Shown piece after piece: positions 1,792-54,443 of a stretch of 64,000 bases of DNA. Origin of the DNA: Halopseudomonas xinjiangensis (GTDB lineage Bacteria > Pseudomonadota > Gammaproteobacteria > Pseudomonadales > Pseudomonadaceae); NCBI GenBank assembly GCA_011050525.1, contig DRFO01000035.1, forward strand, positions 1 through 64,000. The letters are read 5' to 3'. Under the pieces are notes generated by a model. That model did no database searches. It saw only the letters and a list, made by a program, of their open reading frames with translations, and had not been told where the DNA came from. A program made the position numbers and the translations under genes. Position 1 is the stretch's first letter. Each line of letters begins with the position of its first letter.

Positions 1792-4128
1792 TCAGGCTTT
1801 TGGCACACCAGGCATTTTCAAAAGGTTTTTTGCAAGAATGTCGCGCTGTACTTCATTCGTACCGGCATAGATCGATACTGGTCGAGCCATCATCAGCATC
1901 CAATGCAGATCGACCGTCAGGCCTGCTAGATCAAAGCTGCCCACTACCCCGCCATACTCCCCGGCGATCTCTACATTGAACTCGGTAATGCGCTGCAACA
2001 GTTCAGAGATATAGACTTTGAGAATGGAAGACTCAGGACCTGGCTCACCATCGTCACTGGCAATGTGGTCACACATCTGGCCATACAGCTGCCGGTAGTC
2101 CTGGAGGTCTGCCTGCAGCTGAGCAAAGCGATCCATCACGCCACGGTCTTCAGTCAGCTCTAGCGCCCGCAACATCCGCTCAGTCAGCGCCAGCGCGCTC
2201 CAGGCCATAGCGGAGCTACCAAGCCAGATGCGCTCATGACCAAGAAGGGATTTAGCTACCGACCACCCTTCATGCAACTTGCCCACCAGATTGCCGGCCG
2301 GCACCCTGACGTCATCGAAAAACACCTCACAGAATTCTTCTTCGGCAGCAATATTGCGGATCGGTCGTATGCTTATGCCTGGGGACTTGAGATCAATCAG
2401 CAGAAAACTGATTCCCTGCTGCTTCTTCTCGAACCGGCCAGTGCGCACCAGGGCAAAGACGTGCGTTGCATCGGTAGCATGGGTGGTCCAGATCTTCTGC
2501 CCATTAACGATGAACTCGTCGCCCTGCAAATCGGCGCGGGTTTTCAGGCTGGCCAGATCCGAGCCCGAGCCAGGCTCCGAATAGCCCTGGCTCCAGACAT
2601 CGGTACATTCGAGGATCCGCGGCATGTAGTACGCTTTCTGCTCATCGGTGCCCCAGGTCATCAATGTTGGACCCAGCTGGGTTTCACCGGTATCGATAAT
2701 CCGACCAACCCCTGCGCGTTCCATCTCCTGCTGGTAGATGAGCTGTCTGGCAAAGGACAGGCCCATGCCACCGTATGCCTTCGGCCAGGCCGGAGCGCGC
2801 AGACCGTTGTCGTTCAACAGCTTCAGCCAGTGGGTCATGTCATCGGCGCGCAGGCGCAGGAAAGGCCGTCTGTCATTCTGACGCAGGTGGGCGGGGTAGT
2901 TGTCATTGATCCATTGGCGCAAATACAACCTGAAACCGTCGTCCGACAGGGCATCCATATTCACGGGAGCAGGTGCAACGTCGGCGATCAAGGCAGGAGG
3001 CTCGTTCGGAGCGGCGACCGTGCCACTTTCGCTCTGAAAAAACCGCCGGTGCTCTCTGGCTCCACCCAGCCAAGCCGCAGCAAAAAGGGCCGCACGCAAG
3101 TAAAGGCCTACACCGGTTTCCTCGGAAAACCCCATTGCGCCGTGCATGTGCACAGACTGCAAGGCAACTTTTACCGCCGCGTCAGCACATCGCGCCTTGG
3201 CGCTACTCGCAGCAGCCAGCGTCTGCGGGGCAGTGGTGGATTGGCTGAAGCATGCAACGGCATGCTTCCAGGCTGCATTGCCGAGGCGACATTCGATGTC
3301 AAGATCCACGCAACGGTGCTGGATGCTCTGGAATGAAGCGATTGGTCGATCAAACTGGTGGCGCTGCCCAACAAAATCGAGCGTCTTGGCCAGGCAGCCG
3401 TTGGCATATCCGCACAGCTCGGCACTCAGAACAATGCATCCTGCCAGCAGCGCCTGTCCCAGCGTTTGCCGCGCTGCCTCACCTATCAGCAGGGGAGCAC
3501 TGCCGATCAGTTCAACCTGGTCAAAATAAACATGGGCCTGCGATCCTACACCAGCGCCAAAGCGCTCGATGCGCACACCAGCGCCGCTGGCATCAACCGC
3601 AACCAGCGCAATCTCGTCCCCTGTCTGCACCGATACCAGCAGGATACTGTCATCCTCGCACCCGGAGACAAAGCGTTTGACGCCACTGACGCGACCGTCC
3701 CTCAGGACTGTCTCCGGCAGACCGGGAGCGGTCTGGTTCTCCTGTTCCTGCCACGCCAATGTAACCAGCCGCTCTCCGCTGGCGAGCTGCCTGGCGATAT
3801 GCGTTACGGCGTCAGTCCGGATGCTGTCATTCAGTACTATTGAAGGCATGACGCAACAGGCTACAAATGGCTCCCCCAGCAGCTTGTTGCCCATGATTTC
3901 TGCCAGTACTGCAGCCTCTTCAAGCCCGAGACCGCTGCCGCCCAGCTCTTCATTCAGCAACACCGCCGTCCAGCCCAGGTCCGCCATGCTTGACCAGACC
4001 GCACGGTCAACAAGCCGTACCGGCTCATTCCCCAATGCAAGCCGCGCTACTGGCGACAGTCCGGAAAGAAAGCTGTCCGCTGACTCTTTCAGCATGACGG
4101 CGATAGAATCATCAATCATGGCATTCAT
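1792..4128 (-). CDS. Fused two-domain acyl-CoA dehydrogenase (FadE34-like architecture)
   Basis: The ~780 aa protein holds two ACAD modules; the C-terminal one has YSEPGSGSDLASLKTRA, GQKIWTTHATDA and YAGTNEVQRDILAKNLL. Start taken at the internal Met (4128) because the ORF start at 4152 lies only 9 nt from an operator-like motif. Confidence 0.92.
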   Translation of the reverse strand: MNAMIDDSIAVMLKESADSFLSGLSPVARLALGNEPVRLVDRAVWSSMADLGWTAVLLNEELGGSGLGLEEAAVLAEIMGNKLLGEPFVACCVMPSIVLNDSIRTDAVTHIARQLASGERLVTLAWQEQENQTAPGLPETVLRDGRVSGVKRFVSGCEDDSILLVSVQTGDEIALVAVDASGAGVRIERFGAGVGSQAHVYFDQVELIGSAPLLIGEAARQTLGQALLAGCIVLSAELCGYANGCLAKTLDFVGQRHQFDRPIASFQSIQHRCVDLDIECRLGNAAWKHAVACFSQSTTAPQTLAAASSAKARCADAAVKVALQSVHMHGAMGFSEETGVGLYLRAALFAAAWLGGAREHRRFFQSESGTVAAPNEPPALIADVAPAPVNMDALSDDGFRLYLRQWINDNYPAHLRQNDRRPFLRLRADDMTHWLKLLNDNGLRAPAWPKAYGGMGLSFARQLIYQQEMERAGVGRIIDTGETQLGPTLMTWGTDEQKAYYMPRILECTDVWSQGYSEPGSGSDLASLKTRADLQGDEFIVNGQKIWTTHATDATHVFALVRTGRFEKKQQGISFLLIDLKSPGISIRPIRNIAAEEEFCEVFFDDVRVPAGNLVGKLHEGWSVAKSLLGHERIWLGSSAMAWSALALTERMLRALELTEDRGVMDRFAQLQADLQDYRQLYGQMCDHIASDDGEPGPESSILKVYISELLQRITEFNVEIAGEYGGVVGSFDLAGLTVDLHWMLMMARPVSIYAGTNEVQRDILAKNLLKMPGVPKA

Positions 4129-4160
4129 ATCAAAGGTCCTATCATTCAACATATAGAAAA

Positions 4161-14677: not shown

Positions 14678-16693
14678 ATGACTGAACACCAGTACAAAAG
14701 CCTTTTTACCCCTATCAGGTTGCGCAACCTGGAAATACCCAACCGTGTTGTCATGGCTCCCATGTCTACCAATCTGGGTAGCCTCGATGGTTACGTAACG
14801 CCTGAACAGGTCGCGTTTTACCGGGTCAGGGCCGAAGGCGGTACCGGGATGATCATCGTCGAGTTCTGTTGCGTGGATGGCGCCACCGGCCGATCCGAGC
14901 ACCGTCAGCTAACCTTGGAAAGCCCCGCCCAAGTGGCAGGGCATCAGCGCCTGGTAAAAGCCATCATCGACGCGGGATCCGTCGCATGTCTGCAACTTCA
15001 GCACGGCGGTCAGGCATCCAAGCGTGAGCTCGTCAGGGATGGCTTGCCGGTTGCCCCAAGCGATGTCCCAACACGCTCGGACCCGACCGTCCTGAAGGCC
15101 CGGGGCATGAGCGAGACTGAGATAGAAGAACTGATCGAGAGCTTCGGGCGCGCTGCGGAACTGGGCGTGCAAGCGGGTTATCAGGCCGTCGAACTGCACG
15201 GCGCGCACGGCTATCTACTTACCTGCTTTCTCACTCCATTCTGCAATCACCGCAACGATAGCTGGGGCGGCGATGAAGAGCGGCGGCTGAATTTTCCTCG
15301 CCGGGTTATCCAGCGCGTCCGGCAGGCCATCGGGGATCGACCGCTTATTTACCGATTGTCCGCCGACGAATTCACCACCGGCGGGCTGGATATAGACGAT
15401 ATGGTCCGTATCGCTCCGAAATTGGTCGAAGCCGGGCTCGATGCGCTGCATGTCTCGATGGGGCTGGGCTTTACCAGTTTTGACAAGGTTATCGAGCCCA
15501 TGTCTACCCCGGAAGGATGGCGGTTGCCTTACTCCCGCAGAATCCGCGAGGCAGTGACTGTTCCTGTGATCAGCGTCGGCCAGATTCGCTGGCCGGACAC
15601 CGCAGAACGCGCAATCGCCGAAGGCGATGCAGACCTGATCGCGCTGGGTCGCCCCTTACTTGCCGACCCGGCCTGGGCCGCGTGGGCAAAGACCGGACAG
15701 CCAGAAAAAATTCGTCCTTGTACCTCGTGCAACTATTGCGTTGCTGTCAGCTCGGGCCCGCATGGGGTCATCGGCTGCGCCGAGAACCCACGTACCGGGC
15801 ATGAACTCGACGTGTTTCCCGATGCCGGCTCGCTGCGGGGAGAGCGCGCGGTGGTCATCGGCGGCGGGCCTGGCGGAATGTCCGCCGCCCTGTTACTGCA
15901 GCAGGCCGGCTTTCGTACCGAACTGCACGAGAGCCGCGCAATGCTTGGCGGCGGCTTGATCGCCTCCGCGGCGCCTCCGTTCAAGGACAAGCTCACCTGG
16001 TATCAGGACTATCTCATTCGCCAACTGGCACAAAGCCCAGTGAAGGTTTACCTGAACAGCGTGGTCGATATCTCCAGCTTGCGCGACGACCCGCCAGCAA
16101 TCGTATTGCTGGGTACCGGCGCGCAGCCGGTTGCCCTGCCGATAAAGGGTATAGACAGTCCCTGCGTGATCGACGCGTACGAGCTACTGATGGGCGATAT
16201 CGATTGCCTGCCTGAACCGGACGACAGCCGCCCGACACTGGTCTACGGCGGTGGCGAGACTGGCTGTGAGACTGCGGAATTGTTGGCCGAAAAAGGCTAT
16301 TCAGTGGTTCTGGTCAGCCGCTCCCCGGCGTCCAAGCTGGCCCGCTCCGCGGAAATGATCTACCGCGGCGTACTAAAACAGCGGCTGATGGAAAATCCGG
16401 CGATTCGCATTATCGAGAATACCAGCCTGATGGAGATCAGCGCCGAAGGCAGCGTGACACTCAAGGACCACCACGGCACGCGCAGCGAACTACTGATAAG
16501 CCGGGCGCTAATAGCCCAGGGCCGGCGGCCTGACCACAGCCTGACCAACCAACTGATTGAAGCCGGAATTCCGTTCAGCGTGATTGGCGATTCACGCCGA
16601 GGCGGCAGAATTGGCGATGCAGTCCGGGATGCTTATCAGGCGGTGCTTGCAGTCTGTGCCAGCGCCAGCAAACAACCCTTAATGGCCTGTTGA
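14678..16693 (+). CDS. NADH:flavin oxidoreductase / 2,4-dienoyl-CoA reductase-like (OYE barrel plus FAD/NAD domain)
   Basis: LFTPIRLRNLEIPNRVVMAPM, GAHGYLLTCFLTPFCNHRNDSWGG, CTSCNYCV (Fe-S ligands), AVVIGGGPGGMSAALLLQQAG. Confidence 0.93.
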   Translation: MTEHQYKSLFTPIRLRNLEIPNRVVMAPMSTNLGSLDGYVTPEQVAFYRVRAEGGTGMIIVEFCCVDGATGRSEHRQLTLESPAQVAGHQRLVKAIIDAGSVACLQLQHGGQASKRELVRDGLPVAPSDVPTRSDPTVLKARGMSETEIEELIESFGRAAELGVQAGYQAVELHGAHGYLLTCFLTPFCNHRNDSWGGDEERRLNFPRRVIQRVRQAIGDRPLIYRLSADEFTTGGLDIDDMVRIAPKLVEAGLDALHVSMGLGFTSFDKVIEPMSTPEGWRLPYSRRIREAVTVPVISVGQIRWPDTAERAIAEGDADLIALGRPLLADPAWAAWAKTGQPEKIRPCTSCNYCVAVSSGPHGVIGCAENPRTGHELDVFPDAGSLRGERAVVIGGGPGGMSAALLLQQAGFRTELHESRAMLGGGLIASAAPPFKDKLTWYQDYLIRQLAQSPVKVYLNSVVDISSLRDDPPAIVLLGTGAQPVALPIKGIDSPCVIDAYELLMGDIDCLPEPDDSRPTLVYGGGETGCETAELLAEKGYSVVLVSRSPASKLARSAEMIYRGVLKQRLMENPAIRIIENTSLMEISAEGSVTLKDHHGTRSELLISRALIAQGRRPDHSLTNQLIEAGIPFSVIGDSRRGGRIGDAVRDAYQAVLAVCASASKQPLMAC

Positions 16694-22079: not shown

Positions 22080-24308
22080 GTGAACCTTTTCCTGACTGAT
22101 GAGCAAAAAATGTTGGCAGATAGCGTCGCACGGCTATTCGCCAAGGAATCTTCCACGCTCCGAGTAAGAGCGGCGGAATCAACCGGCTTCGATCCCGGGT
22201 TGTGGGACAGCCTGGTAGCGATGGGCATCCCTCTGCTGCGCTTGCCCGAAGAGGCCGGAGGCAGTGGCGCCGGACTGCTTGAAGCGGTGCTAATAACCGA
22301 ACAGGCTGGACGCCATCTGGCTTCAGTGCCCCTGGCCGAAGCCCTGCCAGTTGCCGGACTACTGGCGCAACTGGATACCACCGCGGCGGCAGACCTGCTC
22401 GAACGTATTCGCGACGGTGCGCTGGTCACCCTCGCTCCGTTGCCCCAAAGCGGCGATCAACCGGTATGCCTCCCGGCGCTGGGCGTTGCCGAAGCAGTAT
22501 TGCTACTTGACGGCAAACAGCTATTTTCCGTCAATGCCCGACACGCCATCCATCAGGCGGACAATCTTGGGTCGGACTGCCTCGCCATCGTTCAGCCCGG
22601 ACAACTGGAGCAGGTCACCAGCCGCGAACTTGTCGCATCCGGCGACAGCTGCTACCAGCTTTTCCAGGCCGCAATCGAAGAATGGAAATTGCTCAAGGCC
22701 GCCATGCTCTATGGTCTTGCAGAGCGCGCAATACAGATGGCGGCGGAGTATTCGCGCGAGCGGATACAGTTCGGCCGCCCTATCGGCGGCTACCAGGGCA
22801 TCGCCCACCCATTGGCCGACGCGATTACCGACATGGACGGTACCAGGCTGCTAACCTGGCATGCAGTGTCCGCAATATCCAAAGGGGACAACGATGCCGC
22901 AGCGCTGGTTTCCATGGCCTGGTGGTGGGCGACCCAGGCCGCGCCCCGCGCCACGGCTACCGCGTTGCGTACTTTTGGCGGCTATGGCGTATCAGTGGAA
23001 TACGATATTCAGCTGTACTACCGACGTGCCAGAGCCTGGTCACTGCTGCGCGGCGACCCCCAAACCGAACTCGACCAGATCGGCAGACGCCTATGGTCTA
23101 CCGGCACCTCTTATCCGTTACCCAACGCGGGTGAAACGGATCTGGAATTTGGCTGCGGTGCCGACGCAGAGAGCTTTGCTGACGAGGCGCGCGCCTTCTT
23201 CAGCAGCCATCTTACCGAGGAACTCCAGTCCCACGCCCACCACTCAGTAGACGGTTATCACGCCGGCTTCAATCGCCAGTTGGCCGAGGCCGGCCTGCTT
23301 TACCCGCACTGGCCAGAGGCGTTTGGCGGACGCGGCAAGTCACCCTTCGACATGGCCGCGCTGCAGGAAGTATTCGAGGAGTTCAACTGGCAGCGCATTA
23401 CCGCACCCATTACCAATCAGGTCGCGCAAATCACCATGCGCTTTGCCAGTGAGGCGCTCAAGGAAGAGGTACTACCGCGGTTCGGCAGCGGCGAAGCCCT
23501 TGCCTGCCTGGGCTTCAGCGAGCCCACCTGCGGCTCCGACGTGTTTGCCGCAAGAACCCGTGCCGAGGTCACCGAAACTGGCGATTGGCTAATCAATGGG
23601 CAGAAGATATTTACCACAGCGGGCAACCTGGCCGACTACATTTTCCTGCTGGTGCGTACTGATCCCGATGCGCCCAAGCATGCCGGCCTGACGCTGTTTC
23701 TGGCACCCATGAACATGCCCGGCATCGACGTACACCCGGTGCATACACTGCAGGATGAGCGGACCAACATTACCTATCTCAGCGACGTGCGGCTCAGCGA
23801 TCACTACCGTATCGGCGAGGTCAATCAGGGCGTTGCCGTCATGGCCGCGACCCTGGAGCTGGAACATGGCGGCGACCAGTACCGCATCAGCTACAGCAAC
23901 ATGCTCCGCCATGCCCTGCAATGGGCTCGTACGACCAGACGGGGTGACCGTAGCAGGCTGGATGACGATGAGGTGCGCCGACGTCTGGCGCGTGTAGCGA
24001 CCCATACCACCATCGCCCGCAGCCTCTGCTATCGCGCCATCTGGGGAGTAATGCATCAGGTGCCTGGCCGCGCTGCTTTCGGGCCGATGTCCAAGGTGTT
24101 TTCTACGGAATACTACCGTCGCGACGCCAGTGATCTCATGGAACTGTTCGCTCCGCAGTCGCTGCTGCAGAACCAGAACGATGAACTGGAGCTGATCGAG
24201 CTGGGCTATCGCCAGTCAATCGGCATGACCATCTACGGGGGCACCAGCGAAATCCAGCGTAGCCTGATAGCAGAGCAGGCGCTCGGTATGCCGAAGTCAC
24301 GCAGCTGA
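22080..24308 (+). CDS. Fused two-domain acyl-CoA dehydrogenase (second example)
   Basis: 742 aa; N-terminal ACAD domain (MNLFLTDEQKMLADSVARLF) and C-terminal ACAD domain (GFSEPTCGSDVFAARTRAEV, INGQKIFTTAGN, IYGGTSEIQRSLIAEQALGMPKS). Confidence 0.92.
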   Translation: MNLFLTDEQKMLADSVARLFAKESSTLRVRAAESTGFDPGLWDSLVAMGIPLLRLPEEAGGSGAGLLEAVLITEQAGRHLASVPLAEALPVAGLLAQLDTTAAADLLERIRDGALVTLAPLPQSGDQPVCLPALGVAEAVLLLDGKQLFSVNARHAIHQADNLGSDCLAIVQPGQLEQVTSRELVASGDSCYQLFQAAIEEWKLLKAAMLYGLAERAIQMAAEYSRERIQFGRPIGGYQGIAHPLADAITDMDGTRLLTWHAVSAISKGDNDAAALVSMAWWWATQAAPRATATALRTFGGYGVSVEYDIQLYYRRARAWSLLRGDPQTELDQIGRRLWSTGTSYPLPNAGETDLEFGCGADAESFADEARAFFSSHLTEELQSHAHHSVDGYHAGFNRQLAEAGLLYPHWPEAFGGRGKSPFDMAALQEVFEEFNWQRITAPITNQVAQITMRFASEALKEEVLPRFGSGEALACLGFSEPTCGSDVFAARTRAEVTETGDWLINGQKIFTTAGNLADYIFLLVRTDPDAPKHAGLTLFLAPMNMPGIDVHPVHTLQDERTNITYLSDVRLSDHYRIGEVNQGVAVMAATLELEHGGDQYRISYSNMLRHALQWARTTRRGDRSRLDDDEVRRRLARVATHTTIARSLCYRAIWGVMHQVPGRAAFGPMSKVFSTEYYRRDASDLMELFAPQSLLQNQNDELELIELGYRQSIGMTIYGGTSEIQRSLIAEQALGMPKSRS

Positions 24309-41464: not shown

Positions 41465-41711
41465 TTTAGCTGTGCCTGTCAATCAATCTTGTTTGCCCCC
41501 AATTGCCTGGACAGGACCAATCGAACCACGCAATATAGAAAATAAGGCTCCCCTTAGCGAAGGCAAGGCTTCAGAACACAACATACATATCGATACGGCG
41601 ATCCGTTATCTGCCTTATAAATGTCATTATGTTATTTATACTGAAACCAGCAGTTGCTAATACACAGCGTCAGCGCGAGATACCGGCACCCTGACGTTCG
41701 CACGGATACCC

Positions 41712-42491
41712 ATGATGACCAGTGAAGTGTTGTACGAGGAGATTGACGGCTGCATCGCCCTGATCACCTTGAACCGTCCAGAAAAGCGCAATGCGATCAA
41801 TGTCAGCGTGTCGCGTACCCTGGCGGCCCATGTCGAGAATACCGAAAACAATCGGGCAATCCGGGTGGTCGTCCTCAATGGCGCTGGAGCCACAGCCTTT
41901 TCCGCTGGCGCTGACCTTGACGACATCGCTGCGGGTATCGGCGAACAGATTGCCGACCATGCAGCCGGCATGGGTGGTCTTATCCATGCCCAGCGCCGCA
42001 AGCCGTGGATCGCTGCCGTACGCGGTATGGCGCTGGGCGGTGGCGCCGAGCTGGCACTGGCCTGCGACATGATCATCGCCGGGCAGAACGCCAGTTTCTG
42101 CCTGCCGGAGGTCAAACGCGGCATGATTGCCGGCGCTGCCGGGGCTTATCGTCTGGCCCGACGCATTGCCCCGGCCATAGCCATGGAGCTGTTGCTGACC
42201 GGCAATCGGCTTGGCGCGGATCGGGCCGCCACGCTGGGCCTGGTCAACCGCGTCGTGGTGGATGATGAGGTGCTTGGCCAGGCCCTTGTACTGGCCCGCC
42301 AGATAGCCGATAACGCGCCGCTGGCCGTCAGTGAAACCCTGCTCATCGCTCGTCAGGCTCTCGACTTCGCCGAGCCGGAGCTGCGTGCTCAAAGCACCGC
42401 AGCCAGCCAGCGGCTGGCACAGTCGGAGGACATGCAGATCGGCATACGGGCATTTCAAGAGAAGCGCAAACCCGAGTGGAGCGGGCGCTAA
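41712..42491 (+). CDS. Enoyl-CoA hydratase/isomerase
   Basis: LITLNRPEKRNAINVSVSRTL, VVLNGAGATAFSAGADLDDIAAG, AAVRGMALGGGAELALACDMIIAGQNASFCLPEVKRG. Confidence 0.93.
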   Translation: MMTSEVLYEEIDGCIALITLNRPEKRNAINVSVSRTLAAHVENTENNRAIRVVVLNGAGATAFSAGADLDDIAAGIGEQIADHAAGMGGLIHAQRRKPWIAAVRGMALGGGAELALACDMIIAGQNASFCLPEVKRGMIAGAAGAYRLARRIAPAIAMELLLTGNRLGADRAATLGLVNRVVVDDEVLGQALVLARQIADNAPLAVSETLLIARQALDFAEPELRAQSTAASQRLAQSEDMQIGIRAFQEKRKPEWSGR

Positions 42492-42510
42492 CGTTTTTTT
42501 CTCCACCGTA

Positions 42511-49876: not shown

Positions 49877-50335
49877 ATGAATGAAATGGACAGCCAAGCC
49901 CACGAAGCAATTCGCAATACGCTGGCCACCTATAACTGGTGCGGAGATAACGGTGACTACGAAGGATATCTTGCCACCTTTGCGCTCAATGGAGTGCTCG
50001 ATCTCAAGAACATTGGCACCTACGACGGCCGGGAGTCCATCCGTGAAGGCGTAACTCGGGCCTTCGGAGCCAGTCCAGCGCAGCTGGAAAGGCGCCGCAA
50101 GGCTGGCGGCCGCTTCTCGCATCATGTTTCCAGTATTCGGATAGAACTAACCAGCTCCACCGAGGCACGTTGCTGGTCTTACTTCGCTGTGGCAGGCCCC
50201 AGCGGGTGGGATCACTGGGGCCGGTATACCGACCGGCTGGCGCTGATTGAAGGGCGCTGGCTATTCACCTACCGCCGGGTCAGCGTTGATGGTCGTTCGC
50301 CCGGGGCGGTCTTGTACGACCCAAACTCACAATAG
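49877..50335 (+). CDS. SnoaL/NTF2-like protein
   Basis: IRNTLATYNWCGDNGDYEGYLATFALNGVLDLKNIGTYDGRESIREGVTRAF, HHVSSIRIELTSSTEARCWSYFAV, DRLALIEGRWLFTYRRVSVDG. Confidence 0.85.
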   Translation: MNEMDSQAHEAIRNTLATYNWCGDNGDYEGYLATFALNGVLDLKNIGTYDGRESIREGVTRAFGASPAQLERRRKAGGRFSHHVSSIRIELTSSTEARCWSYFAVAGPSGWDHWGRYTDRLALIEGRWLFTYRRVSVDGRSPGAVLYDPNSQ

Positions 50336-50352
50336 AAAATAGGAGAATGACC

Positions 50353-51432
50353 ATGCCCTTGCGTGTAATCGTTTGTTATACGGGCGGTGTCGGAAGCGAA
50401 GTGGCACGCCTGGTATTGCAGAACCCCGCCTTTGAGCTGGTTGGTGTGCTGGTGCACAGCAGCGAAAAGGAAGGCAAGGATGTCGGCGACATCATCGGTA
50501 TCGGACCGGTCGGGCTGAAGGCAACCCGGGATGTGGACGCACTGCTGGCCTTGCAGGCTGATGTCGCTGCCTGGCATGGCCTGACCTGGCAGCCGGAAGT
50601 GGTGGCCAGATTCTTGCGCGCCGGTACGGGTGTCTATTCGAGTATCGGCGGATGGCATCTGCCTAGCGCACCCGAATACCACTTGCTGCAGAGTGCCGCC
50701 GAAGAAGGTGGAGCCGCGCTCATGGCCGGTGGCAATATTCCCGGTCTGATAAGCGATGTGTTACCGCTCTTCTGTACGGGTTACTCCACCAACATCCGCA
50801 TGATCAAAGCCTTCCAGAGAAACTTTGTGCCCCACTACCCCTCGGCGGTTCAGCTGAGTCAGTTTGTTGGCATTGGCCAGCCGGTGCCGGACTCTACATT
50901 CGACCCCCAGGCTGAACTACCTGAAGCCGACAAACTCTGGATGTGGGGCATTGCCCAGTCCGCCCGCATCGTCGCGCAGGGGCTCGGCATACCAATGGAT
51001 GACCTGCGGCTGACTAACAAGGAATATGGCCGCTCTCCGCAGGACATGGTCTTGCAGCCAAGCGGATTGAAAGTCGCCAAAGGCACCGCCGCCGGTGTGC
51101 GCTGGACCTTTACCGCCTTCTCCCAAGGCGAACCTTTCTACCAGTTGATCAATGAACAGACCACCCGGCTCGATATCGGTAGTGACTGGCGGGAAACGGA
51201 AGATACCCCGAACTGGCGCGTTGTCATTGAAGGGTCGCCGAGTATCCGATGCGAATTCAGTTTGCTCGCCGATCACAGCGGCCCGGACGATGTCGCCTCG
51301 CTGAACGCGGCCCGAGCAGTGAATTTCCTGCCCAGAATCGCCGCAGCAGCCCCCGGCTGGCATACCGTACTGGATGTGCCCGCCCCCATCGGCAGCCTGG
51401 CGACGCAGATCCCTGAAAGGAAAATACAATGA
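50353..51432 (+). CDS. DapB-like / diaminopentanoate-dehydrogenase-like NAD(P)-dependent oxidoreductase
   Basis: MPLRVIVCYTGGVGSEVARLVLQNPAFELVGVLVHSSEKEGKDVGDIIGIGPVGLKATRDVDALLAL; Rossmann start, DapB-like N-domain; AGGAG 7 nt upstream of ATG 50353. Confidence 0.8.
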   Translation: MPLRVIVCYTGGVGSEVARLVLQNPAFELVGVLVHSSEKEGKDVGDIIGIGPVGLKATRDVDALLALQADVAAWHGLTWQPEVVARFLRAGTGVYSSIGGWHLPSAPEYHLLQSAAEEGGAALMAGGNIPGLISDVLPLFCTGYSTNIRMIKAFQRNFVPHYPSAVQLSQFVGIGQPVPDSTFDPQAELPEADKLWMWGIAQSARIVAQGLGIPMDDLRLTNKEYGRSPQDMVLQPSGLKVAKGTAAGVRWTFTAFSQGEPFYQLINEQTTRLDIGSDWRETEDTPNWRVVIEGSPSIRCEFSLLADHSGPDDVASLNAARAVNFLPRIAAAAPGWHTVLDVPAPIGSLATQIPERKIQ

Positions 51433-52262
51433 AAATTTTACGCCACAAGGCTGACCTGGATGCTGAACTGACGGCACTGAGAGCTCAGAACAAATCCATT
51501 GGCTGGGTCGGCACCAGCGGAGCCTTGCATGAGGGACACCTATCACTGCTGCGCCATGCCGGTTCTGAGAACGACGCAGTGATTATGTTCTGGACTGGCG
51601 ACATGGCGTTTCCCTGGGCGGGGATTTCCAATCCATCCTATCCCCGCGACTATGAAAAAGATGCCGCCATGGCCGCAAGCGCCGGAGCGAAGCTGCTCTA
51701 CATTCCAAGGGGCGAAGAGATATATCCCCAGCCTCCCATTGTCACGGTCACAACGCCGGCCTTGCATCGCCCAGGCCTGACGGCACCGCAACATCTAGAC
51801 ATGGTGGCGCTGTTCATGAGCAAATTTCTCAGCATGGTTGGCGGTTGCACCTGTTACATGGGCGAAAAGGACTGGCAACAGTTGGTGATGATGCGCCAGG
51901 TAGCCAGCGACCTGTCACTTCCGGTGACGCGTTTTGTCATCACTCCGACCGTGCGCGACGCAGATGGTGTTCCCCTGTCGAGCCGCAACATAAAGCTGAC
52001 ACCGGAAAACCGTATAGCCGCCGCAATAGTTCCCCAGGCTCTGGAAGCCGCGGCCAGAGCCATCGCCGAAGGCGAAAGGGATCCAAACAGAGTCAGAGAG
52101 ATCATAGTCGAACGCATAGAAGGCCAGGCACTGCTGGTTTACGCCCATGTGGTCAGCGAAACACTCCAGGATATCAATCCGCTGCGCGGGCCAATCCGGC
52201 TGATGGCCTGCGCACGATTTGGCGAGGTGGAGATTCTCGACAACCTGGGCGTTAACATCTGA
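51429..52262 (+). CDS. PanC-like (pantoate--beta-alanine ligase family) enzyme, divergent paralogue
   Basis: GALHEGHLSLL (HxGH), CYMGEKDWQQLVMMRQV, PTVRDADGVPLSSRNIKLTPENR. Start overlaps the upstream stop (ATGA). Confidence 0.9.
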   Translation: MKILRHKADLDAELTALRAQNKSIGWVGTSGALHEGHLSLLRHAGSENDAVIMFWTGDMAFPWAGISNPSYPRDYEKDAAMAASAGAKLLYIPRGEEIYPQPPIVTVTTPALHRPGLTAPQHLDMVALFMSKFLSMVGGCTCYMGEKDWQQLVMMRQVASDLSLPVTRFVITPTVRDADGVPLSSRNIKLTPENRIAAAIVPQALEAAARAIAEGERDPNRVREIIVERIEGQALLVYAHVVSETLQDINPLRGPIRLMACARFGEVEILDNLGVNI

Positions 52263-52302: not shown

Positions 52303-53085
52303 TCAGATTCCTGCAGCCATGTAGCCACCATCGACCGGCAGCACTATGCCGGTAACAAAGGAGGCTGCAGGGCTGCACAGGAACATGATGCCGGCGGCAA
52401 TTTCCTCCGGACGCCCCCAGCGCCCCATTGGCGACCTGGCCATGACACGGCCGTTGCGCTCCTTATCCTGTTGCATTGCCTTGGTCATGGGGGTATCAAT
52501 CCAGCCAGGCGCTACAGCATTTACCCGGATACCCTCGGCAGCCCAGGCCAGAGCCAGGCTTTTGGTCAACTGCACTACCCCACCCTTGCTGGCGGAATAA
52601 GCTGGCGCGGTCGGACTGCCGAAAAAGCTCATGACAGAAGCCAGGTTCACGATACAGCCCTGGCTGGCTGCCAGCAGCGCCTGGGTCGCATAGCACATCC
52701 GCATGGTGCCAACGAGGTTTACTTCAAGGGTTTTCACGAACCCTTCCTCAGTGAACTCGCTTGTCCCGCGACCGACACCCGCTGCATTGACCAGCACATC
52801 CAATCTCTCAAGCCGCCCCAGGCAACTGCTCACGGCATCGGCATCCGCTACATCCAGCACAGCAAAGCGAGCCTCCTTGAGGGCCTGATCAGCGCTGCAA
52901 GCCTCGATTTCCTGTTGGGATATGCCCGTAGCCAGCACATTGCAGCCGGATTTCAATAACTCGATGACAACAGCACGCCCGATACCGCTAGTACCGCCTA
53001 CAACCAGCCCGTATTTACCAATCAGATCAATATTCACATCGATTTCCTCTTCCGCACCAGGCTCGTCACGCAGCATAAATAACAT
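52303..53085 (-). CDS. SDR-family oxidoreductase
   Basis: IGKYGLVVGGTSGIGRAVVIELLKSGCNVLATG, LVNAAGVGRG, PAYSASKGGVVQLTKSLALAWAAEGIRVNAVAPGWIDTPM. Start uncertain (53085, 53073 or a GTG at 53037). Confidence 0.9.
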   Translation of the reverse strand: MLFMLRDEPGAEEEIDVNIDLIGKYGLVVGGTSGIGRAVVIELLKSGCNVLATGISQQEIEACSADQALKEARFAVLDVADADAVSSCLGRLERLDVLVNAAGVGRGTSEFTEEGFVKTLEVNLVGTMRMCYATQALLAASQGCIVNLASVMSFFGSPTAPAYSASKGGVVQLTKSLALAWAAEGIRVNAVAPGWIDTPMTKAMQQDKERNGRVMARSPMGRWGRPEEIAAGIMFLCSPAASFVTGIVLPVDGGYMAAGI

Positions 53086-53252: not shown

Positions 53253-54443
53253 ATGAAAACCGTCGATTACCCTATCTATGATGTCGACCGTCATTTCTAC
53301 GAGCCGCCGGAAGCTTTCCTGCGCCACTTACCCAAGGAATTTCGTAAAGACTTTCAATACGTGCAGGTCAACGGTCGTACCAAGCTGGCGGTCGGCGGAG
53401 TCCTGAGCGATTACATCCCCAATCCGACCTTTGACGTGGTTGCCGCCCCTGGCGCCCATGAGGACTGGTATCGCGGAAAAAACCCGGAAGGCCTGTCCCT
53501 GCGCGAGATCGGCGGCGAGCCAGTTCCCGGCGACCCAGCCTTTTTCAGCGGCGAGGCCCACCTGAAAGTCATGGACGAACAAGGTATCCACGCCGGACTC
53601 TTTCTGCCTACCCTGGCCTCGGTTATCGAAGAAAGGCTGGAGCACAAGCCAGAAGCTATCGCAGCCCTGTTTGGTGCGGTGAACCGCTGGCTGGTGGAAG
53701 ACTGCGGGCTCGCGCGGGATGATCGCCTGTTCCCGGTACCCATGGTCAATCTGTTCGATGTAGACAAGGCGGTCGAGGAGCTTGATTTTCTCATCAAGTC
53801 CGGCGCCCGCGTGGTTGGCATCCGTCCTGCGCCGGTAATCGGCCTGAAAGGAGGTCGCTCTTTCGGTTTCCCTGAATTTGATCCCTTCTGGGCACGTGTC
53901 AGTGAGGCGAACATTTTTGTGGTTCTGCACGTCTCGGATTCAGGCTATGACAAGATCAACCGCTGGTGGACTGCTGGTGGCGAGGGTGAATTCCGGCCCT
54001 TTGAGAAAAACCCCTTCGCCGAAGTTCTAGACTGGATGGGAAGAGCCATTTCCGACTCCCTTACTGCTCTGATCTGTCATGGCGTGTTCGACCGCTTCCC
54101 GAATATTCGGGTCGCGTCACTCGAAAATGGTTCTGATTGGCTTGAACCTCTACTGCTCCGGCTGGCGCTGAACTTCAAAAAGATGCCGAACGCGTTCAAA
54201 CAGGATCCGGTTGAGACATTCAAGAAGCACGTCTTCGTTTCTCCTTTTTACGAAGACCCGGTCGCCAGACTCATCGAGCTGATTGGGGTGGAGCGCATTC
54301 TTTTCGGCAGCGACTGGCCGCATCCAGAAGGTCTGAAAACTCCTCTGGATTTCTTCAAGGACATCAATCATCTGAACGATGCGCAGATCAAACGGATCAT
54401 GCATACCAACATGAAAGGTCTCATTGAGGGTGCTCGCGACTGA
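53253..54443 (+). CDS. Amidohydrolase family 2 (ACMSD-like metal-dependent hydrolase)
   Basis: YPIYDVDRHFYEPPEAF, GLFLPTLASVIEERL, LICHGVFDRFPNIRVASLENGSDWLEPLL, RILFGSDWPHPEGLKTPLDFF. Confidence 0.92.
   Translation: MKTVDYPIYDVDRHFYEPPEAFLRHLPKEFRKDFQYVQVNGRTKLAVGGVLSDYIPNPTFDVVAAPGAHEDWYRGKNPEGLSLREIGGEPVPGDPAFFSGEAHLKVMDEQGIHAGLFLPTLASVIEERLEHKPEAIAALFGAVNRWLVEDCGLARDDRLFPVPMVNLFDVDKAVEELDFLIKSGARVVGIRPAPVIGLKGGRSFGFPEFDPFWARVSEANIFVVLHVSDSGYDKINRWWTAGGEGEFRPFEKNPFAEVLDWMGRAISDSLTALICHGVFDRFPNIRVASLENGSDWLEPLLLRLALNFKKMPNAFKQDPVETFKKHVFVSPFYEDPVARLIELIGVERILFGSDWPHPEGLKTPLDFFKDINHLNDAQIKRIMHTNMKGLIEGARD

Follow-up and report, generated by a model that had tools for sequence, protein, structure and literature searches.

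The window, a stretch of 64,000 nucleotides from a Halopseudomonas xinjiangensis contig, encodes a PanC-like ligase, hereafter PanCL, within a set of genes that is also found in other genomes. The genes of this set and the adjoining SDR are as follows.

49877-50335 (+), SnoaL-like protein, the first gene of the set
50347-51432 (+), AmDHL, an oxidoreductase with DapB_N and DAP_DH_C domains and a native amine-dehydrogenase fold in which the catalytic Glu is replaced by Gly; overlaps PanCL by 4 bases
51429-52262 (+), PanCL, PanC-like ligase
52303-53085 (-), SDR lying between the PanCL and amidohydrolase genes, with 88% identity to its counterpart in Pseudomonas sp. WN033
53253-54443 (+), amidohydrolase (PF04909)
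14678-16693 (+), old-yellow-enzyme-type NADH:flavin oxidoreductase

The SnoaL-like protein, AmDHL, and PanCL are encoded in this order on the same strand; 11 bases separate the first two genes, and the last two overlap such that the ATG of PanCL covers part of the AmDHL stop codon. The same overlap occurs in a Polaromonas metagenome-assembled genome (MAG), and in WN033 a gap of about 50 bases separates the two genes and the start codon of PanCL is GTG. The Polaromonas locus encodes homologs of the SnoaL-like protein (60% identical), AmDHL (61%), the old-yellow-enzyme-type reductase (63%), and the amidohydrolase (69%) in a different order. The wider window contains DUF1302/DUF1329 and MMPL proteins, a KshA-type Rieske oxygenase, acyl-CoA dehydrogenases, CoA ligases, MaoC, thiolase/lipid-transfer proteins, SDRs, and enoyl-CoA hydratases, in agreement with the CoA-catabolic neighborhood described in a first-pass annotation of this DNA. 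A Massilia plasmid carries a related cluster that has MarR, APH, acyl-CoA dehydrogenase, lipid-transfer, amidohydrolase, and DUF1329 genes in common with the window, and no homologs of the SnoaL-like protein, AmDHL, or PanCL were found in the plasmid stretch compared. PanCL therefore looks like an add-on to a pathway whose substrate may be an alicyclic, terpenoid, or steroid-type compound. Other genes of the window merit mention in their own right. A 278-residue open reading frame at 41670-42506 (-), without a Pfam match, adjoins a CoA ligase and is 70% conserved in WN033. The proteins encoded at 1792-4152 (-; 786 residues) and 22080-24308 (+; 742 residues) each appear to be a fusion of two acyl-CoA dehydrogenase units, and the latter has a full-length relative (45%) on a plasmid of Sphingobium sp. 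TomTYG65.

The PanCL open reading frame encodes 277 amino acids and is preceded by the sequence aggaaa. The Pfam model PF02569 covers residues 2-273 at 182 bits, which confirms the assignment of this frame to the PanC family; the NCBIfam equivalog model for pantothenate synthetase, TIGR00018, scores it at 153.9 bits, below the cut-off of 212.75 bits. The solved structures closest to PanCL in sequence are pantothenate synthetases. An AlphaFold model (three sequences) adopts the PanC fold, and a fold search with this model returned pantothenate synthetases for all of the 50 best listed matches. The model has a pLDDT of 64, with values below 50 at residues 58-72 and 98-123, and at the pocket its confidence is too low for docking.

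We compared the motifs of PanCL with those of 43 other members of the PanC family and, in a second alignment, with those of 81 from Pseudomonadota, and placed the numbering of Mycobacterium tuberculosis PanC on PanCL using motif spacing (His44/47, Asn69/Gln72, and Lys160/Gln164). The motifs that bear on the two halves of the active site are listed below.

51528-51539 (+), HEGH, residues 34-37, ATP site, kept; equivalents of His44 and His47, present in 81/81 relatives
51591-51611 (+), WTGDMAF replacing FVNPxQF, residues 55-61, with loss of Asn69 and Gln72 (alignment with 43, then 81 relatives)
51861-51884 (+), GEKDWQQL, residues 145-152, ATP site, kept; equivalents of Lys160 and Gln164 retained
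51975-51989 (+), LSSRN, residues 183-187, ATP site, kept (alignment with 43, then 81 relatives)

The ATP half of the site is intact. Residues H34, H37, K147, D148, Q151, S184, S185, and R186, the equivalents of the ATP-site residues His44, His47, Lys160, Asp161, Gln164, Ser196, Ser197, and Arg198, are identical in all three PanCL sequences and in all 81 others, and the GALHEGH, GEKDWQQL, and LSSRN motifs first read in the frame are all present. The pantoate half is rebuilt. Asn69 is replaced by Gly and Gln72 by Ala or Ser in all three PanCL sequences; both residues are present in every one of the 81 other family members, none of which carries the changes. Pro38 and Met40, each retained in 80 of the 81, are Gly and Ser in PanCL. 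The PTMG-to-GTSG and FVNPxQF-to-WTGDMAF replacements proposed in the first-pass annotation, the latter with loss of the Asn and Gln, are thus borne out, and the usual motifs are present in the aligned PanC of Escherichia coli, Yersinia, Salmonella, Brucella, and Thermotoga. The PanCL clade also has Phe for Val142, Met for Val143, and Met for Phe157; we take these three positions, together with Pro38, to line the pocket. A further proposed change, in an HFRGV segment, needs correction: the segment is altered (APQHLDMV), but its Arg is not generally conserved and the true motif is RPGHFxGV, of which PanCL retains the His and has Ala, Asp, or Glu for the Arg position, Leu for Phe, and Met for Gly. 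In M. tuberculosis PanC, substitution of Ala for Asn69 or Gln72 lowers activity about 1000-fold and both residues are needed for formation of pantoyl-adenylate (PMC5772511), and two conserved Gln residues of PanC bind the hydroxyl and carbonyl of pantoate (PMC7770189). Given that the ATP half is intact and the residues that grip pantoate are replaced, PanCL probably activates a different acid.

A second PF02569 match in the host genome, on contig C15 (58774-59601; 353 bits), is a canonical panC, which supplies the additional copy that the first-pass annotation had proposed to look for. It lies directly downstream of an open reading frame that we take from its sequence to be panB-like, itself preceded by a presumably folK-like one. 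A canonical panC is also present in WN033 (taken as genome G113 on the basis of matching contig coordinates) and in the Polaromonas MAG (G934). PanCL is thus not the only or main pantothenate synthetase gene of its genome, the canonical panB-panC pair lying elsewhere, and the PanCL cluster contains neither panB nor panD, as was noted at first reading. These observations bear on the idea that PanCL is an ordinary, horizontally acquired second panC that still makes pantothenate. The full-length PF02569 match, the retention of all ATP residues, and the presence of only pantothenate synthetases among the 50 best listed fold matches speak for this idea; however, two residues that never vary in the 81 other family members, and that M. 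tuberculosis PanC requires, are replaced in three orthologs, the equivalog score falls short, every host has a canonical panC, and the cluster lacks the other pantothenate genes. We therefore consider it very unlikely. Second copies of panC do occur in other Pseudomonadaceae: L095 and L028 (genomes G071 and G079) branch inside the panC of family f45, which suggests horizontal transfer.

Orthologs of PanCL in Pseudomonas sp. WN033 (88% identity) and the Polaromonas MAG (66% identity) are changed at the same positions. In our phylogenetic tree the three sequences form one clade with full support (100/100) on a stem of 2.31 changes per site, and with midpoint rooting this clade falls outside all sampled Pseudomonadota PanC; the length of the stem does not permit its source within the family to be placed. 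Searches of overlapping genome sets from the family (about 200 genomes), the phylum (399), the class (369), and the Polaromonas family (281) gave no further members, the next-best scores being about 193 bits compared with 567-599 bits for PanCL. A contig scan, which uses exact peptide patterns and may therefore miss distant members, recovered only WN033 and Polaromonas, and a plasmid search gave just PanC of the canonical type, at identities no higher than about 40%. PanCL is very rare, with three genomes found, and our literature search found no PanC paralog of this kind. Comparison of the window with WN033 yields a dN/dS of about 0.09 for PanCL, indicative of purifying selection, and the neighboring genes are also constrained. 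The long stem, together with the loss from AmDHL of its family's catalytic residue, might be taken to mean that PanCL is a decaying or catalytically dead copy, retained by chance or in a structural or regulatory role. We regard this as highly improbable because dN/dS is low, the ATP residues are all intact, and orthologs from two genera, at 66% identity, have the new pocket residues in common; this conservation and the low dN/dS instead argue for a new function over decay.

AmDHL, the partner of PanCL, aligns along its length with the native amine dehydrogenase AmDH4 (6g1m; E = 4e-15) and, like the native amine dehydrogenases and 2,4-diaminopentanoate dehydrogenase, contains DapB_N and DAP_DH_C domains. 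In contrast to AmDH4, the catalytic Glu (Glu102) is a Gly in AmDHL, within a Gly-Gly-Trp sequence common to all three homologs. Mutation of this Glu nearly abolishes the activity of AmDH4 (PMC9325545), and AmDHL resembles a set of Glu-less homologs, "G5," that were inactive in amination tests (PMC11164908). AmDHL, lacking the ammonia-activating Glu, is therefore not an obvious supplier of amine, and a scheme in which it makes an amine that PanCL converts to an amide is weakened and not established. No close relatives of AmDHL were found in 399 Pseudomonadota genomes (next match 105 bits compared with 764), and its distant plasmid homologs have unrelated gene neighborhoods in which no PanC-like gene is annotated. 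With Gly-Gly-Trp at the catalytic position in three genomes, AmDHL is a further candidate for a novel activity.

Based on these data, PanCL is a new functional variant of the known PanC family, and we judge it probable that it is a PanC-fold former of acyl-adenylates with a pocket rebuilt for an acid other than pantoate, acting in a co-conserved catabolic set. The conserved ATP site makes it likely that PanCL would form acyl-AMP from an acid and ATP; the pocket strongly supports an acid other than pantoate, and this acid may, more tentatively, be an intermediate of the catabolic pathway. The original proposal that PanCL adenylates a different carboxylic acid is thus well supported, by inference. 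Neither of the sequence findings named at first reading as counting against it turned up: the genome has a separate panC, and the changes at Asn69 and Gln72 are absent from the 81 other family members compared. The roughly 1000-fold cost of losing either residue in M. tuberculosis PanC, the conservation in two genera, and the low dN/dS also support it. The accompanying proposal of amide formation stands less firmly, its possible amine-supplying partner having lost the catalytic Glu: transfer of the acyl group to an amine, the ancestral second step, is moderately supported, and the group may instead pass to another acceptor. One version of the latter, in which no amide forms and the acyl-adenylate goes to AmDHL for reduction, to CoA, or to a hydroxyl, would fit the tight coupling to AmDHL (in two of the three genomes the genes overlap by 4 bases), the loss of the amine-forming Glu, and the CoA-thioester gene context; however, we know of no PanC-fold enzyme that passes an acyl-adenylate to any of these, nor of a DapB-fold oxidoreductase that reduces acyl-adenylates, and we consider this version unlikely. 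Returning to the preferred reading, PanCL would work with the NAD(P)-dependent AmDHL, the SnoaL-like protein, the old-yellow-enzyme-type reductase, and the amidohydrolase, attached to a pathway that breaks down, through CoA thioesters, a compound of alicyclic, terpenoid, or steroid-like type. We lean toward the view that PanCL represents a non-pantothenate branch of PanC for catabolism, paired with AmDHL, the two jointly carrying out an undescribed acid-activation step.

PanC is generally treated as a family with a single reaction. The enzyme attracts interest as an antibacterial target (PMC7770189). The PanCL gene would probably be labeled panC by automatic annotation, and pantothenate prototrophy should not be inferred from a PF02569 match alone. 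If our interpretation is correct, PanCL shows that the PanC family can be repurposed, could serve as a natural starting point when a compact ligase is to be re-engineered, and hints at an undescribed step of acid activation in catabolism.

Among known systems, PanCL is most readily compared with PanC itself (PF02569, TIGR00018, EC 6.3.2.1; nearest structure 3inn from Brucella, with 1n2h and 1mop from M. tuberculosis), with which it is about 33-40% identical over the whole length and shares the HxGH, EKDxQQ, and SSRN ATP motifs, the length, and the fold. Unlike PanC, it has replacements at Pro38, Met40, Asn69, Gln72, Val142, Val143, and Phe157, a catabolic context, and a score below the equivalog cut-off. 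An 8-Mb Pseudomonadota genome (G232; L102:1405-2313 (-) and L103-L105) has a pair of full panC genes, a set of decayed PanC fragments, and a gene for a divergent PanC-like protein (L102). L102, like PanCL, is a PanC-family paralog alongside canonical panC; however, it is 26% identical to PanCL, retains the equivalents of Asn69 and Gln72, and adjoins a gene for a pentapeptide-repeat-like protein.
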